Part shown: positions 33,457-56,300 of the stretch, piece by piece
Position numbering within the stretch: the stretch's first letter is position 1
Layout: each line of letters opens with the position of its first letter
Assembly (NCBI GenBank): GCA_009192285.1
Contig: WBVU01000015.1
Span: 558,001 to 622,000, forward strand
Origin: Morchella semilibera
Taxonomy: Eukaryota > Ascomycota > Pezizomycetes > Pezizales > Morchellaceae
Direction: 5' to 3'
Length of the DNA: 64,000 bases
The notes under the pieces: generated by a model
Databases searched by the model: none
Told to the model about the DNA's origin: nothing
Seen by the model: the letters and a program-made list of their open reading frames with translations, nothing else
Made by a program: the position numbers and the translations under genes

Positions 33457-36019
33457 TAGTGATACGTTGAGGGATGGTTGAATGCTTTCTTTGTAAGATA
33501 TACATAGGGATTGAATATGAAATAACTCTTAGCTCATGCGGTGTTAGAGAAATTTTTATTGTTGATACAGAAGAATTGTTACGTCTTTACGAACCTACAT
33601 ATTTCTCGTGAGGATACCAGTTCCATGTACTGGGAACAAATCTATTCAGCCCAATTGTAAGAATTGTAAGTGTCGACTAGCTGGTGTTGGCATACTTTAC
33701 TATCCCCATAGAATGATTCCCTCAAAAGACTGTTTGGGTAGACATGTATTCAACCATCGATTATTGGCCGTTTGGATAGGGAATCCTTAAAAGACTTGAC
33801 GGGCAGTAATCGGCAGAAAGCCCACTTAGCATTTTGGGCTTGAAAGAGGTCTCCAATGCCGAACTATGCAATCATGAGATATCACTCGGTATTGTCTGCG
33901 GGGCGGTAAAAAGTGTACCTACATCTTCCAGTTAGGGCAGTGGTGATTTTCTTTTATATAGTGAGCTATTATCCAAGAAGGGAATACATCATGCTTTAAA
34001 GCAAGAGGCGGTAGTCTATATCCGGTTTCAGGGCTAAAAAATGAAGAAAAAAAATAAATAAAAAACTTTTTTACGCCAGCAACAAAAGACTTATGTGTAT
34101 GAGTGTCATCCCTCAAGAGCGTCGCTACCATGTTGGGCATTCTCACCACTGCTCCCACCCGGGTTTGAACCGGTAAGTGGTCATATGACGAAGCCCAGTG
34201 TATTACCACTAGACCACGCCACGATACTTTTATTTGTGCCGCTACACTTTGTGAGCCCTCCGTTTGTGGAAGGATCCTTGGCAACGCACATCACCCACCA
34301 ACCGTACAGGGCAGGGCACCCAAGGAACACTCCGCTCCGCTAAGTACAGTCCATCGCGGAACAGACCCAGGTACATGTATACACCGATTATCCCCCACCC
34401 GCCCCCCGATTATCTCGGGGGGCAGCTCCCCTACATGACTATAATAAGATTTTAAACTGACTAGGAAGCTTAGATACATGTAGGCACCGTGCCCTAGTAG
34501 CCTAGGTATCTTTACGCTGGAAGGGCCCAGGCCCAGCCCAGGGCGGTCCGTGGAGGCCTGGGATCACAGAATATCACTCGTAAATGACCGACAGTCTAAA
34601 TGCCCTCCTAAACGAAGCGAAGGGCAGGGGTAAGGTCACAATACCGCTCTCTGGTTGGCTAATCTATGGGCTCAACACCACTGACCTTCAAGATTCATAT
34701 CTTTCCAAAGATGAGGGGAAAACGTCATGGCAGCGCGACGGCCGCCCCCTGCGGGGAGGGGGAAGCGGGTATTGTTCCAGTGACGCGAGTTTCGAGTACT
34801 GTGGGCTAGAAAGCACTGGAAACCAGGAATCATCTAGATATGTACCTTCAAGGTGTATGGCCACCTCTATATAGGGTTGGTCAGAGGCCCGGGGCGGCGG
34901 CGTGCCTAAGTAATTGTGAAGAGAAAGAGGCGAGACCTGGTTGCCTGATTGACTACAACAGCACAGATAGATGGGTCTTATATGCCCACCAAGTAGACAG
35001 TCACATATAAGAGTAAGTACATACCGGAAAATACTCCTAGGCACTTTGGCAACTCCGGTGCTAACAAGTGCGTGGACTAATGTGTGCTCCTACTTCTCAG
35101 TTAAGTAGACTCTGGGGCCACATTTCAATTCACAAAAGATGGTTGGTTTTTGTGGCGAGGAATGATGCGGGGAAGGCGAAAACGAGATAATTGCTAAATC
35201 ACCCCTTCTAAACCCCCAACTCTTCATATTGCTGCTTAGTGTCCCTTGGTTGAGCACCAAGAGGCGCCCCCCACCTGCAAGATTGATCACTGGATGCCCA
35301 ACGTGTACGGAAAACCCCAGCCAGATCAAGGGGATTGGATTAGGCCATATATCACCAACTAACCGACGGAATCAGAAGTCTCGCTGCTTTGGCTGACACA
35401 TTGCTGGTACATTCTTGCTTTGTAGTGATGATCAAGCAGAGTAGCGGGTCAATCAATCAATGGTTAATGGGGAAAATTTTAATGCCACGAAAGCACATTG
35501 TTTAAGTTTGTTTTTTTGGTTTTTTGTTGGGTTTTGTTTTGTCTCGCTTTGCTTTGGTTTAGTCTGTTTTGGGAGATGGCCGGGGGAAACTTTTATATAG
35601 GCATTCGCCATAGTCTTAGTTATGGGCTGCGTATAATTAATAATCTATTAAGGGGTCAATATTCAACCAGAGTGAGTTACCAATCAATCAATCAATCAAT
35701 GTCCAACAAGAGTCACCGGCTCGAGTGATAATCTATGAAGAATAGTATTTTTTTTCATTCATCGGAAAGGGTCTATCTATATCTAGCTGTAAGCAAGCAG
35801 AAGGCTCTCTATATAAGAAAAAATTCACAATGAATGAGTGTGAGTATAAGAAATATAATATATATAAGGAGATAAAAAGGAACCCGTTCCCACTGAGCAA
35901 AAGCACCCAGCAGAACCGGGCGGGTTTCGAACACACGCCAGATAGATCGTAGGCCGTACGCAACAGACCACCAGTTAAAACAGTGCCTAATGAGTGTGTG
36001 TATGTGTCCGATATTACTC
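33457..36019. other. intergenic with SINE and motif copies
   Basis: No gene is supported. Copies of the recurring 19-bp motif lie at 33870-33888, 34562-34580 and (opposite strand) 35722-35740. T/G-rich sequence lies around 35500-35570. A short tRNA-like hairpin at about 35900-35965 was judged insufficient for a tRNA gene. The last part is the 3' flank of the lipase-like gene. Confidence 0.5.
34033..34313 (-). mobile_element. tRNA-derived SINE, copy 2
   Basis: Reverse-strand copy. The head starts at 34223 (CGTGGCGTGGTCTAGTGG), the B-box GGTTCAAACCC lies at about 34161-34171 and the conserved body runs to about 34085. An A/T-rich tail then runs to about 34033. Upstream of the head (34224-34313), sequence similar to copy 1 continues, including GCCAAGGAT and GCACAAAT, suggesting that the full element is about 270 bp. 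Confidence 0.8.
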
Positions 36020-39000
36020 TTATTCCTTCGTCTCGGCCTCGGCCTCGGCCGCATCAGCACCTGCCTCGACGACAGAAATGATTGGAGAACCGGCCTTCTC
36101 GTGATTGGTCCACATTTCCTTCAGGCTAGGAAAATCCTTCTGCACCTGCTCACTGGAAGGGATGCTAACAGAGGCTTTCTCCTCCTCGCTAATTAGGCTC
36201 GCACTCGACGCTTTCAGCTTCGGGTTTAGGCTCTCGCCGCTGCCGCCAAAGAATCGATCGGCCTCATTCACGCACTCCGTATCCTCCGGGTCGCAACGGG
36301 ACTTTGGCTTGTACCTCATCCCGTGGGAAAACGGCTTCTCATCCTCATCCTCAGCGTCCGCAGAGCCGGCAGTGGCGGGCAGATCATCGCCGTAGACGGA
36401 CTTCTGTGCGAAGTTTGCGGGCATGGGCTGGCCGTTCATGAGGACGACATTGCGGCCCTTTTGAACGTTGACAACCTCCTCACCGAAGGATGCCGGGAAG
36501 GCATTTGCGAATCCACCGACCTCGGAGACGGAGCGGGTGTCTCCCGGCGCACTTTGGAGCTTGGTAACCTTCTCGCAGTCCTTGTCGCCGCGGCGGAGAC
36601 CGCCTTTTTTAAGGCCAAGACCGGGACCACGCGTGCTTTTTTGGGCTGGGATGACAGAGCGCTTTTGAGCAGGCGCGGGCACAGGTGCAGGCTCCTTTTC
36701 TTTTGGCTCAAAGAGGACTGGGTGACCGTCGACTTCAAGGGGGCGGCCATTGAGGAGAAGGACAGACCCGCCCTTGCGGAAGTAGTCCTCATCCGGATCG
36801 CCGCTCTCTCCGGTTTCGCTGGGGGCGTTGCCGCCAGCAAGGGCGCGCTGTTGAGCGTTGTAGGCGGCGCTCTCCTGGTTTGCGGCGAGTTGGGCGTCAA
36901 GAACGTCCTTGGGGGCGTTGAAGAAGCGGAGAGCGCGGTCAAAGCCACGCTTCTCGATCGTAGCTTCAGTGATGTTTTCAACCTGGGAAGGCTCTGTGAG
37001 AGCTTTGACGTTGAGGGTGCTGTGGCGCTTTTCGAGGGTGGTCTGCTGCTGCTGCAAGTTTCTGGACGTATGACCGGCTTCGACCACGCTTTCCTGACCC
37101 ATTCCAGACCAGCCTGACAAGATATTGACAGGCTCGATAGTAATGATGTCTCTCTTCTCGATCTCGTCTGACTCGGGGAGCATCTGGTCCTCAAAGAACT
37201 CGTCAGAGATCTTCTGCTTACTCGCGACACCTTGAGGCTTCTTAATCCACATCTTCTGAGCCTTGTCAAAGCCTGCCATAGTATCGTAGATCTCCTTATC
37301 CTCATACTCAGTCGGAACTGGTGCGGGCTTATCTAGCATTTCAAGGGTATTTTTAAGTGCGGCGGACTCGACGCTCGTACCATCTTCAGAGAGCTTGCTG
37401 CGTTTGCTCTTCTCTGATGTAGCAGGATCAGGGACAGGTTTAGGCTTGATCCACATTGATTGAGCCTTGGAGAAGCCTGCCATAGCAGAGTAGATCTCTT
37501 TGTCCTCGTACTCGGGGACATAGACTGGCTCCCTCTCGCTCTCCGGGGCGACCTTTTTCTTCTCGACCATCGCGAAGGTCTTTTCAAACTTTGAGTCGGG
37601 AACGGTGGTCTCGGCTTCCGCGTCTGGGTTTGCCTTCTCATCGCCAGTTTCGGAAATCTTGCGCTTGTAATGGCCGGGGCCGGTCATATATGGGGGCAAA
37701 TCAACGAATATGTCTTGGTCGGCGTTGAGATCGGTATCAAGGAGGGACCTTTTGGATTTGAGTGACCAGTCGTCGATGATTTCCGTCTCGAACTCAGTAA
37801 TCTCAACAATGACAGACAATATGGAGAGTTCGCTGGCTAAGCAATTGTCCGAGTGGTGGAAGTAATCAGCGGAAACGGGAGCGGCAATAGGTGTGAGAGG
37901 GACTTCGCATCCGGGTTCCAAGTTGTTGGCGCACGAAACGACATCCAAGGGGGTATATGGAGCAAAGGGCTTCGTGATGATGAAGGATTGCTACGTTTTA
38001 TGATGTTAGTATTCTAGCAGGGCTGATATCAGATCAAGAACTGAGGTCTTAGGGTAGAGGCATATTATGCTAGTGCCCTTGATATATAGATACCTCGTAA
38101 TGAGAGAAGCTGGAATTATCCTCAGTAAGAGGATAGTTGGGAGTTGGGTCGGAGATATGGGTCACCCGGCGATAGGTCAAAGGGGTGAATTTCTAGAATA
38201 GATTTAATGTGAATATGTATTTCATGCTTCATGCTTCCAAAGCGTATGTAAAGGGCTCCCGGGAAAGCATACTGAATGTTCTGAATAGGAAAGGAACGAA
38301 AGGCCATAGAAAAAAGGGGAGATGTTACCCTATCAAGGAATTGCGCATATTGATCATTTCCAACCATTGGCTGCCCAAACGTAGTAAGTTCGGGGTTCCA
38401 TCCCTTGGCAAAGAAATCGGCAGCAGCCAAAGTTACCACAGCACCACCAGCTTGGCTTCCAACAAGAACGAGTTTATAAGGATTGCTGGCTATATGTAGA
38501 CATGAGTACATGAGTATTGGGTCCCCGCACAAGATATCGATGTTCATCTGATCCATACCTTCGACATACTGTTTCACCAACTCCTTGATGGCCTCTTCAG
38601 CCTTGACCCATTCCTTGTGGAAGCCTTTATGGACCTTACACCCAGGGCAGACATGCTTGTAATCCACGGTCTCCGCGGTTGGGCTGCTGCTGTAGCCACC
38701 CGCGATTGCAACGAAGATCTTCCTTCCATCGTGATCAACCGCGACGTACCCGCGTGTACCCTCGCCTTGATCGGCGAGGTCATCGTTGGTGTTCCATTGC
38801 TTCACCAACTCGAGTCCCGGGAACTCCCTGCAGAAAGAGTTACACTGGAAAGGATAGGTAATCCCCTCGATGGACCCGGCACAGTTGGTTATATCGACAA
38901 CCTTGGCAAGTTCAACGAATTCATCAAAGAGAGACTTGGAGATTCCAGGGGAGAGAGTGGGTAAACGAGCAGAAAGCTCATAGTTGACTGGGCTAGCTTT

Positions 39001-39114
39001 CTCAATGTTACCTTGAGAACCTAACAGAATTTGTCTTGAGCTCGGAAACGGAGCTGCTAGGGCCACAAGTGGGAAACATAGGAGCGTTGCCGAGCGTAAA
39101 TATGTGGACAACAT
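36020..39114 (-). CDS. Secreted class 3 lipase-like protein with long repeat-bearing, Kex2-site tail
   Basis: Four exons (39114-38559, 38489-38329, 38192-38094, 37990-36020; introns 69, 136 and 103 nt, all phases exact) encode 928 aa. A signal peptide (MLSTYLRSATLLCFPLVALA) is followed by a lipase class 3 domain (about 60-330) with RGYVAVDH, CPGCKVHKGFHKEW, YKLVLVGSQAGG, TYRRVTHISDPTPN and a C-terminal piece ending DYFHHSDNC. The nucleophile motif is GSQAG instead of GHSLG: Gln198 sits where serine is needed. Asp254 (SDP) and His270 remain. The tail (about 340-928) contains a 25-residue unit twice (432-457 and 500-524: EYEDKEIY..MAGF..KAQ.MWIK), two LNGRP/MNGQP segments (about 678-701 and 783-799), and Lys-Arg sites such as IEKR, LEKR, TIEKR and AQKR. 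Lipase fold and secretion are seen in the sequence; loss of activity and Kex2 processing are inferred. Confidence 0.85.
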
Positions 39115-53300: not shown

Positions 53301-56300
53301 AGTCCACTCCATCGTATGGATTATATAACCAGGTGTAGAAACATTAGGTATAGCAGAGGCCATGGCGTCGAAATTGGGCAAGGAGCAATGGAACAAAGAA
53401 AAAAAAGTTACCCGTCCAATTATCCCTCGTCTGGTAGTTAATTGCTGCCAGGTTTGAGACACCTGATCTTGCCAAACGAAGACCTAGTTTGTCAGTGCGT
53501 CAGGCGTAAGCCACATCTGAGTTGATTTCTTGGCAGCTCTAACAGACGAATTAGATTAGTTCCTATGCGACAGGCGAGCGGCGTGGCTTGTTGAATCATA
53601 GAAGATCACTCGAATGCCAAGGAAAGTGCCTAACACTGTAAATATTTGGTTACTCAAGTTTTGGAACTCACAGACACACAATAAAGTATGCGTTATATAA
53701 ATTGACCCTATGATCATAGTTCTACAAGCCTGTTACTCGTTACAGCTTGTGTAATTACACCCCAAGGCTATTCCAGTCGCGGGCACGTTGACTTTCAATA
53801 GCGGGGCAGACTCTCTAACAGAGGCTGTACCGGACATAGAAGCGCCGCTCATCCCAGAACATAGCCCTCACGAGCTCAACTCTCACTTTAGCTGGCTGCT
53901 ATTTAGGAGATCTAAAGATGTACCCGGCCAGCTAATCGGAAGCACCTCTATCTAGGCCCTGTTCTTCATGGCACTTTCATTCCTCCACCGAAACCCCCCC
54001 CCAGCACCGGCACAAACGCCACCTCGGGTGGGGGGAATATTTACCACAGAAGCTTCTGTTGCTATTCTCACTCTTTTTTGGCGTTATAGCCTCCTCCTAC
54101 TTGCCTAGGGCTTTCTCCTCTGTGGTCTCGAGGGTTCGCTGCAGGGGGAGGTTTGACAGTTTTTTCCTTTTTGATGTTCGAACAAATAAACAAACCAACC
54201 AAGCCCCGGTGTTTAGTTACTCAATACAAGTTACCTTCTATAACTCCATGGATAGCTCTGTCCGCAGGACCGGCCCCCGGGAGGGGGGGGGAGGTGGATC
54301 CTAGAAACTTTTCTTCACTGTTGTACATAGGGCGGGTCAAGCCTGATCGGTGCGGCTCGCAAGACCAATACCCCTCATCTCTCGCCTCAGAGTGTGCGTC
54401 TTGAGAGCATCGAGACAATCTGGGGGTGCGGGGGTGGTGGGGGTGGTGGGGTTTAGTGTAACTACTCATCCTTACGTGCTTCGATCTGCTCTGCGGATCA
54501 CAGTGAATCAGGTACTGCTTATTATGTGGCTCTGTACGTGAGGTGTGAGTGGATGTGTAATAGAATTTTCCGGCACGCCAAGGATGGCCGTGAAAGCACT
54601 GCGTACGGGGTTAAAATTTATTGTGGTGTTATTGACGGCACCGTGGCGTGGTCTAGTGGTAATACACTGGGCTTCGTCATATGACCACTTAACCGGTTCG
54701 AACCCGGGTGGGAGCAGTGGTGAGAATGCCCAATATGGTAGCGACGCTCTTGAGGGATGACACTCACACACATAAGTCTTTTGCTCCAGGATTTAATTCC
54801 TTTTTTTTTTAATTCAGCTTCCATAACGAAGGCCCCCAAATCCGGGATAAAACCGCCTCAACCCACCCCTCTATAGTTCAGTCAGGATTGTGTCCACCAC
54901 CATTCAGTGACGGGATACCCTCCGGCCACTCCATATTACGAGTGATGACCTGTGAGTCTACGAGTTTTTTTTTTTTTTGTTTACATCAGTAATCGTATCC
55001 AGCGTGAGTCTACGAGTGATCGATTGATCAATACTACACCAAGTGTCTTTAGGTTGCGGAAGCTGTGATGAGTGTTGAGTTCCCTTGCAAGTTATGCCTG
55101 CATTCGTCAAGTAAATCACGTGCACACAATCTGGGCACGGTGAGGATGTCTTCGCCATTTCAACTCTAGATCTGGAGCAGTATCATTTTAGAGAAAATAA
55201 AACTGGGCTACGTGCGCTGTTTCTCTTTGGTGGGGCCCGTCGATACCCAGTATCGATCCATCATCACTCTGTAAACGACAGTACCTGCGGGAGGATTATG
55301 CTAAGGACCAGCCTTGCATATACTGTATATGAGCAAGTACATACATCTTATCTGCTTCTTGGATCCGGTTTGATATGCTTTTGTGCCAAATCACCCTATT
55401 GTGTTAAACACATATGCATGTAGACCTGACTAAGGCCACTGCACATACATAAAACCAGTTGTAGCAAGATCATTAACGTGGTAATCGTTATTTCGATAGT
55501 GGAGGGATAAGCACCGCATACATGTAAGTATGTATGTACTTGAGTGCCCAAAGCCGTACCTCTATGGGGCCCAAAAAAGCCTTTGTTAAAACCACAGCTT
55601 GATACTGAACATGCTCTGAAGACGCAAAAAATAAACTCCTGGTCAGCTTTGGCTAAGGCTTATTCGGGGCTTATAGAAATATTGGTTCTGCTCCTCAAGT
55701 AGCTGCCCCACAAACGAGGAGGAACGCATAAAGGCCTGTGCTTCTGTGTGGGCGGTATATAGCATGAGGGCATATAACAAGCGTTAATGCCTAAACCGGT
55801 CGGTATTCCGTAATAGTGATAATTACTATTATATAGAAGGCCGGGGCCCAGGTCTTGGGTCGGGGGACTTGAGAGCGCATCCCGTATTTTGGGTATAGGT
55901 ATAAATTTATAATTACAGTCACGGAAAGGACAAATCTATATCTTACAAACGAAACGGTATTTACGCATCATATCGACGATACCCCTGGATATCCTGTTGA
56001 ATAAATCTCGAGGAGTGGGGTGAGAAAAACGGTCAAGAAATAGCGCAATGAAGACAAACATGATATTCATTCACGCTCGTCTACACCTCCATTCAGACCC
56101 TCTTCCGCTATCGTAAGTAAACTGTTACTCAAACCCTTCAACGCCATGTGAGATAAAAAAGGACAAATGAAACGAACGAGCGAGCGTGAAAAAAAAAGGA
56201 TTGAAATGTTGATACTCGAGAGAAGAATGCTAGCAAGAAAAGAGAAGGATATAAAGCTAGAAGTTGATAACCGCTTGACTGGTATAGAATTTGTTGGCCG

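Follow-up and report, generated by a model that had tools for sequence, protein, structure and literature searches.

The question raised by this locus of Morchella semilibera is whether a lipase-like domain and a very long tail with many Lys-Arg (KR) pairs form one secreted protein, and whether that protein is the precursor of several peptides. A protein of 928 residues is predicted from four exons on the minus strand, at positions 39114-36020 of the window (the whole stretch of 64,000 nucleotides analysed). The order in the predicted protein is a signal peptide, a class 3 lipase fold and a 606-residue tail, with the tail in the same exon as the lipase C-terminus (Table 1). The start of the gene at 39114 is located outside the coordinates of the first-pass annotation. 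The three introns are of the GT-AG type, have lengths of 69, 136 and 103 bases and are all found within the lipase part; a 41-base version of intron 1 led to a frameshift, and the 69-base version was adopted instead. The gene model is supported by the match to Pfam Lipase_3, which improves on splicing from an E-value of 1.6e-11 for the unspliced reading frame to 5.4e-19 for the protein. The Lipase class 3 profile PF01764 is matched with 68.9 bits against a curated cut-off of 22.

By inspection, the N-terminus MLSTYLRSATLLCFPLVALA, followed by APFP, is a typical signal peptide with a hydrophobic core and an A-L-A cut site; the highest hydrophobicity in a 10-residue window is 2.67, in the window beginning at residue 11. 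The same exon had been described as running on for about 600 residues past DYFHHSDNC, and this is correct: 606 residues follow with no stop, and the segment 37990-36020 (minus strand) is a stop-free reading frame of 656 codons. The GC-poorest codon position is position 2 in all ten tail windows (60 codons each, starting at residues 361-901), the pattern that coding sequence should show. The gene model, the signal peptide as inspected, this coding periodicity and the low dN/dS between the repeat cores described below support the prediction that the secreted (pseudo)lipase and the tail are one continuous fusion.

Table 1. Positions of the predicted features in the window (minus strand) and the basis of each assignment
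Feature	Residues	Positions	Strand	Basis
Exon 1: signal peptide (~residues 1-20) and N-terminal part of lipase fold		38559..39114	-	gene model and hydrophobicity
Exon 2: nucleophile-elbow region, GSQAGG		38329..38489	-	gene model and alignments
Exon 3: THISDPTP with Asp254 retained; FSHYE with His270		38094..38192	-	gene model and paralogue alignment
Exon 4: end of the lipase part, entire tail and stop codon		36020..37990	-	reading frame and gene model
Codon CAA, coding for Gln198 where the catalytic Ser would stand	198	38452..38454	-	PDB and paralogue alignments
KR (LKSKR), near the lipase-tail junction	352-353	37748..37753	-	gene model
KR (GHYKR)	381-382	37661..37666	-	gene model
Repeat core 1, EYEDKEIYSAMAGFSKAQSMWIK	432-454	37445..37513	-	pairwise comparison
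KR (EKSKR), separates the two repeat-bearing segments	468-469	37400..37405	-	gene model
Repeat core 2, EYEDKEIYDTMAGFDKAQKMWIK	500-522	37241..37309	-	pairwise comparison
KR (EIEKR)	551-552	37151..37156	-	gene model
KR (TLEKR)	593-594	37025..37030	-	gene model
KR (TIEKR)	619-620	36947..36952	-	gene model
VLLLNGRPLEVDGHPVLFEP, highest model confidence, strand pairs		36704..36763	-	AlphaFold2, 10-residue means 64, 77, 69
KR (PAQKR)	715-716	36659..36664	-	gene model
RR	738-739	36590..36595	-	gene model
VVLMNGQP		36425..36448	-	translation and fragment comparison

Residues 1-328 match 31 distinct PDB sequences at E-values up to 0.001 (best 1.5e-20), which bear the names lipase or feruloyl esterase A. 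The protein shares with these class 3 enzymes the profile and sequence match and the Asp, but differs from them in a replaced nucleophile, a replaced oxyanion residue, a shortened segment and an added tail of 600 residues. The nucleophile motif GHSLGG is changed to GSQAGG, so that the Ser of an active enzyme is replaced by Gln198. The motif R-G-[ST] is the oxyanion element of class 3 lipases and the segment following it is the lid. An active enzyme would have R-G-[ST] where A-G-G is found here (F-R-G-T in a paralogue compared with I-A-G-G), and the segment after A-G-G is shortened, with two 8-residue gaps relative to the same paralogue. Asp254 aligns with the catalytic Asp, while His270 is one alignment column off the His of the paralogue. 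This comparator is a single gene of the same genome (locus L019, C2:2862921), picked by eye, with an alignment score of 468. It appears to encode, in one exon, an intact secreted class 3 lipase 369 residues long, which has the GHSLGG motif and lacks both KR and a long tail. The mature lipase part of the present protein (residues 22-322) has eight cysteines, and each of them pairs with a cysteine of L019.

The genome searched comprises 56.8 Mb in 23 contigs, the window being on contig C12, and gave nine Lipase_3 matches. One on C12 is the present gene, one on C13 is a near-identical copy, and one on C19, below the cut-off, was left out; in the other six reading frames, all of which were read, GHSLGG is intact. 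The replaced nucleophile and oxyanion residue and the shortened segment, compared with the motif kept in six of six relatives, make it very probable that the domain has no lipase activity by the usual mechanism. The first-pass annotation had guessed at a "(pseudo)lipase", and these replacements agree with it.

The tail (residues 323-928) has a net charge of -33, three cysteines and one N-glycosylation sequon. Its charge-hydropathy value is disorder-like (Uversky -0.03, compared with +0.13 for the lipase part). A comparison of the tail-bearing reading frame of 656 residues with Pfam and the PDB at E-values up to 10 matched nothing, and in its own genome the only relative is a copy on C13, a contig nearly identical to C12. 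Weak genome matches to parts of the tail (E 0.95, 0.04 and 5.3 in a search up to 10) were treated as noise. A pattern was fitted by 12 stretches in the bacterial and 2 in the viral collections, and none was confirmed as a relative. The start of the tail, after the last lipase cysteine, was also considered as a homologue of the L019 C-terminus and was rejected (P 0.09 gapped, 0.11 ungapped). An AlphaFold2 model of the 656-residue frame, made with no alignment, has a mean pLDDT of 39.8 with 24 of 656 residues reaching 70; low values from a single sequence are not proof of disorder, and the model is too poor for a fold search.

At least seven KR sites had been claimed for the tail, and the count is exactly seven, with one RR in addition. 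A mean of 1.92 KR is obtained when the composition is shuffled (P 0.0016). The lipase part has one RR (residues 247-248) but none of the seven KR, and RR (1), KK (4) and RK (2) show no excess in the tail. Kexin prefers an aliphatic or a basic residue at P4. An aliphatic P4 is present at three KR compared with 0.35 expected (P 0.005), and an aliphatic or basic P4 at five compared with 0.59 expected (P 0.0002), this criterion having been applied after the sites had been seen. Conditional on seven KR, the five of seven have a P of 0.03 and the three of seven a P of 0.12, which is a modest bias. As a control, 15 other unspliced reading-frame segments from the window and the loci gave KR ratios of 0-3.25, compared with 3.52 for the tail. 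The over-representation by itself is not unique, since a NOP9 segment reaches 3.25; for a segment that looks, by eye, like white collar the ratio is 2.52. The pattern [ILVM]xKR occurs three times in the tail, once in each of four control segments and never in the other 11. No Ste13-type XA or XP dipeptides were found after the KR sites in the fragments. A kexin gene is located on contig C3, with a P-domain match (E 8.6e-16) that spans positions 1-57 of 86, and its exons, read by eye, contain the His, Asn and Ser catalytic motifs together with a membrane anchor. This kexin, the short introns, the white-collar-like segment and a UstYa gene described below are together suggestive of a filamentous fungus. 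The site statistics and the presence of this gene make kexin processing of the tail plausible.

A unit of 25 residues had been reported to occur twice in the tail. The duplication is confirmed as a core of 23 residues, EYEDKEIY..MAGF.KAQ.MWIK, in two copies with 19 of 23 residues and 55 of 69 nucleotides identical. Core 2 is closed by KK (residues 522-523), while KP is found at that place in core 1. The KR-bounded fragments 383-469 and 470-552 align with a score of 118 (maximum 51 in 500 shuffles). Ten codons differ between the cores, six of them synonymously, giving an NG86 dN of 0.13 and dS of 1.42; these values come from 23 codons only, and dN is biased downwards because the limits of the core were picked by protein likeness. 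When the 14 changes are placed neutrally, a mean of 9.3-9.5 amino-acid changes results, and four or fewer are obtained in a fraction of 0.0001 of 20,000 runs from either copy. The low dN relative to dS and the few amino-acid changes suggest that the core is translated and has been kept by selection.

The DNA next to the cores is much less alike, with 4 of 15 bases matching, ungapped, in the nearest full step on either side, and homology of the flanks was not accepted (P 0.03 on the N side, 0.24 on the C side). GFDRALRFF (residue 621) is not significant as a third, degenerate copy of the core (P 0.14 and 0.44). The segments VLLLNGRP and VVLMNGQP had been called related, and this likeness is marginal: the score is 52 with a mean of 31 and a maximum of 59 in 5000 shuffles, and the P of 0.0036 for the fragments is uncorrected for the number of fragment pairs. 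It is important to note that KR borders neither core. The upstream KR are 49 and 30 residues before, and the downstream KR 13 and 28 residues after.

These features can be compared with those of known precursors. The KEP rules, as given in excerpts of PMC6339444, include a motif in at least three fragments and 15% of the protein length. The signal peptide is present by inspection (SignalP was used in PMC6339444), and cutting at KR and RR gives ten fragments, eight of them after residue 353, where at least four are called for. Judged by pairwise alignment and not by the Le Marquer 2019 pipeline, one pair of fragments is clearly alike and another marginally; the two cores (2 x 23 residues) make up 5% of the 928 residues and the two whole fragments 18%. 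The gene is not a KEP because it falls short of the three-fragment and 15% rules. With the KEX2-processed repeat proteins, as these are presented in parts of PMC6339444 and PMC7329392, it shares the signal peptide and several KR sites, but has two copies rather than three. The first-pass interpretation as a whole holds in part, but its proposal of repeats separated by KR and cut by Kex2 does not hold in the usual sense: there are two copies only, KR is 13-49 residues away from the cores and the repeat rules fail.

UstYa (DUF3328) is the partner of cyclised RiPP precursors. Its single match in the genome at E-values up to 0.01 is on contig C1 and not on C12, and this is not the arrangement of an ustiloxin-type RiPP. 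Ece1p has no enzyme domain, and its fragments are unlike one another. According to the portion of PMC5784256 used here, Ece1p has 271 residues and seven KR motifs, of which only two are needed to release the active peptide; the present protein shares with this type of precursor the signal peptide and seven KR motifs. Hum3 of Ustilago maydis has 17 repeats of 31-36 residues, 14 of them separated by putative Kex2 motifs, in the account of PMC4617103 as excerpted. Both proteins combine a folded domain, in that case a hydrophobin, with a region of repeats that has putative Kex2 sites; however, the hydrophobin follows the repeats, whereas the pseudolipase precedes its two copies. In the GH128 protein 365456 of Coprinopsis cinerea, a Kex2-released peptide was detected by peptidomics (PMC9769878, in excerpt). 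This is likewise a protein of enzyme fold with a Kex2-bounded peptide, but it has one short peptide and a C-terminal glycoside hydrolase, while here a long C-terminal tail is carried on a lipase fold. On the preferred reading, the gene resembles Hum3 or Ece1 in its logic more than it does precursors of the ustiloxin type. The architecture had been thought not to be described; the GH128 protein and Hum3, as far as the excerpted sources go, provide precedents for its type. Words starting with "lipase" are absent from the main text of PMC6339444, PMC7329392 and PMC9769878, and no lipase-Kex2 polyprotein is found among the matches listed in the open-licence literature.

From the anatomy, the dead-looking site, the excess of sites and the conserved core, as read from the sequence, we infer a secreted pseudolipase-polyprotein that kexin would cut at some of its KR sites, a reading to which we give a probability of somewhat under one half (about 0.48). 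The tail would be exposed to the kexin resident in the late Golgi, which would cleave some of the seven KR. A cut after Arg353 would free the lipase fold, 31 residues beyond its last cysteine. Cutting at every KR would divide the tail into fragments of 29, 87, 83, 42, 26, 96 and 212 residues, and with RR739 also cut the last would become 23 and 189. The fragments of 87 and 83 residues would be the duplicated pair presenting the 23-residue core, and the role of the lipase fold would be that of a carrier, a folding domain or a binding module rather than that of an enzyme. A stronger version, in which a dead lipase has been taken over to carry a multi-peptide precursor through folding and secretion and kexin frees two paralogous peptides of about 85 residues, with EYEDKEIY-MAGF-KAQ-MWIK as the active, selected part, and further unrelated peptides, seems to us rather unlikely. 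The usual type of peptide precursor is disfavoured mainly because the core is internal to a KR-bounded fragment, and a disordered region with a binding motif would account for an internal core about equally well.

This last point leads to a possible alternative, which we regard as worth serious attention: the tail may stay on the protein as a disordered extracellular extension, with the cores as tandem binding motifs for the wall, the membrane or a protein partner and the KR mostly incidental. The restriction of the likeness to the cores, the distance of the KR from them and the acidic, disorder-like composition of the tail would all be explained. However, the excess of KR and the three (I/L)EKR contexts would not, and exposed KR in disordered cargo of the Golgi are generally expected to be cut. 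The distance of the first KR from the last lipase cysteine could suit a C-terminal propeptide, cut by kexin mainly at KR353, with the tail discarded or serving as a chaperone and the pseudolipase as the mature product. Lipase propeptides cut at KR are known, but 600 residues with a duplicated motif that preserves its amino acids would in our judgement be unusual for a discarded propeptide, and we consider this improbable.

Least probable is that two genes or transcripts share a frame by chance or that the gene model is wrong. An internal Met at residue 374 and the location of all introns in the lipase part might be taken to suggest it, but between the two parts there is neither a stop nor a change of frame, the coding periodicity continues, no in-frame Met was found from the end of the lipase to residue 374, and Met374 has no signal-like sequence. 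If the secreted pseudolipase-polyprotein is cut as proposed, pseudoenzymes with a lipase fold would join the few carriers known for secreted peptides of fungi, and a KEP screen demanding at least three repeats, as in the excerpted PMC6339444, would miss such a gene. If the protein is not cut, the gene would still encode a secreted pseudolipase whose disordered-looking tail holds a conserved motif of unexplained role. In the 23-residue core there is a concrete conserved motif.

The copy of the gene on C13 was ruled out as independent evidence by the complete identity of the stretches compared. Contigs C12 and C13 have 1,576,628 and 1,575,470 bases and agree at every base (100%) in the three stretches, each of roughly 10 kb, that were compared. 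From one of these stretches to another, the offset between the contigs shifts from +55 to -22 bases, so the contigs differ in length somewhere. They represent either redundancy of the assembly or two near-identical haplotypes. Contigs C9 and C10 form a second near-identical pair with paired positions of the SINE-like repeat described below, again in keeping with a partly redundant assembly or near-identical haplotypes.

A reading frame of 295 residues antisense to the tail (36230-37117, plus strand) is unsupported as a gene and is probably a shadow of the coding strand. A tRNA-like dispersed repeat is located at 34083-34223 and 54642-54783 of the window; the first copy has an A-box-like TGGTCTAGTGG and a B-box-like GGTTCAAACCC on the minus strand. 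ARAGORN found no tRNA in these regions of the window. The repeat has at least 40 matches in the genome with 92-100% identity (40 of 123 candidates were scored, and both C12/C13 and C9/C10 were counted), and it is probably a tRNA-derived SINE. Another tRNA-like stretch, which has a GTTCGAAACCC box, is located at 35890-36010, just past the stop codon of the gene, and occurs only here and on C13.
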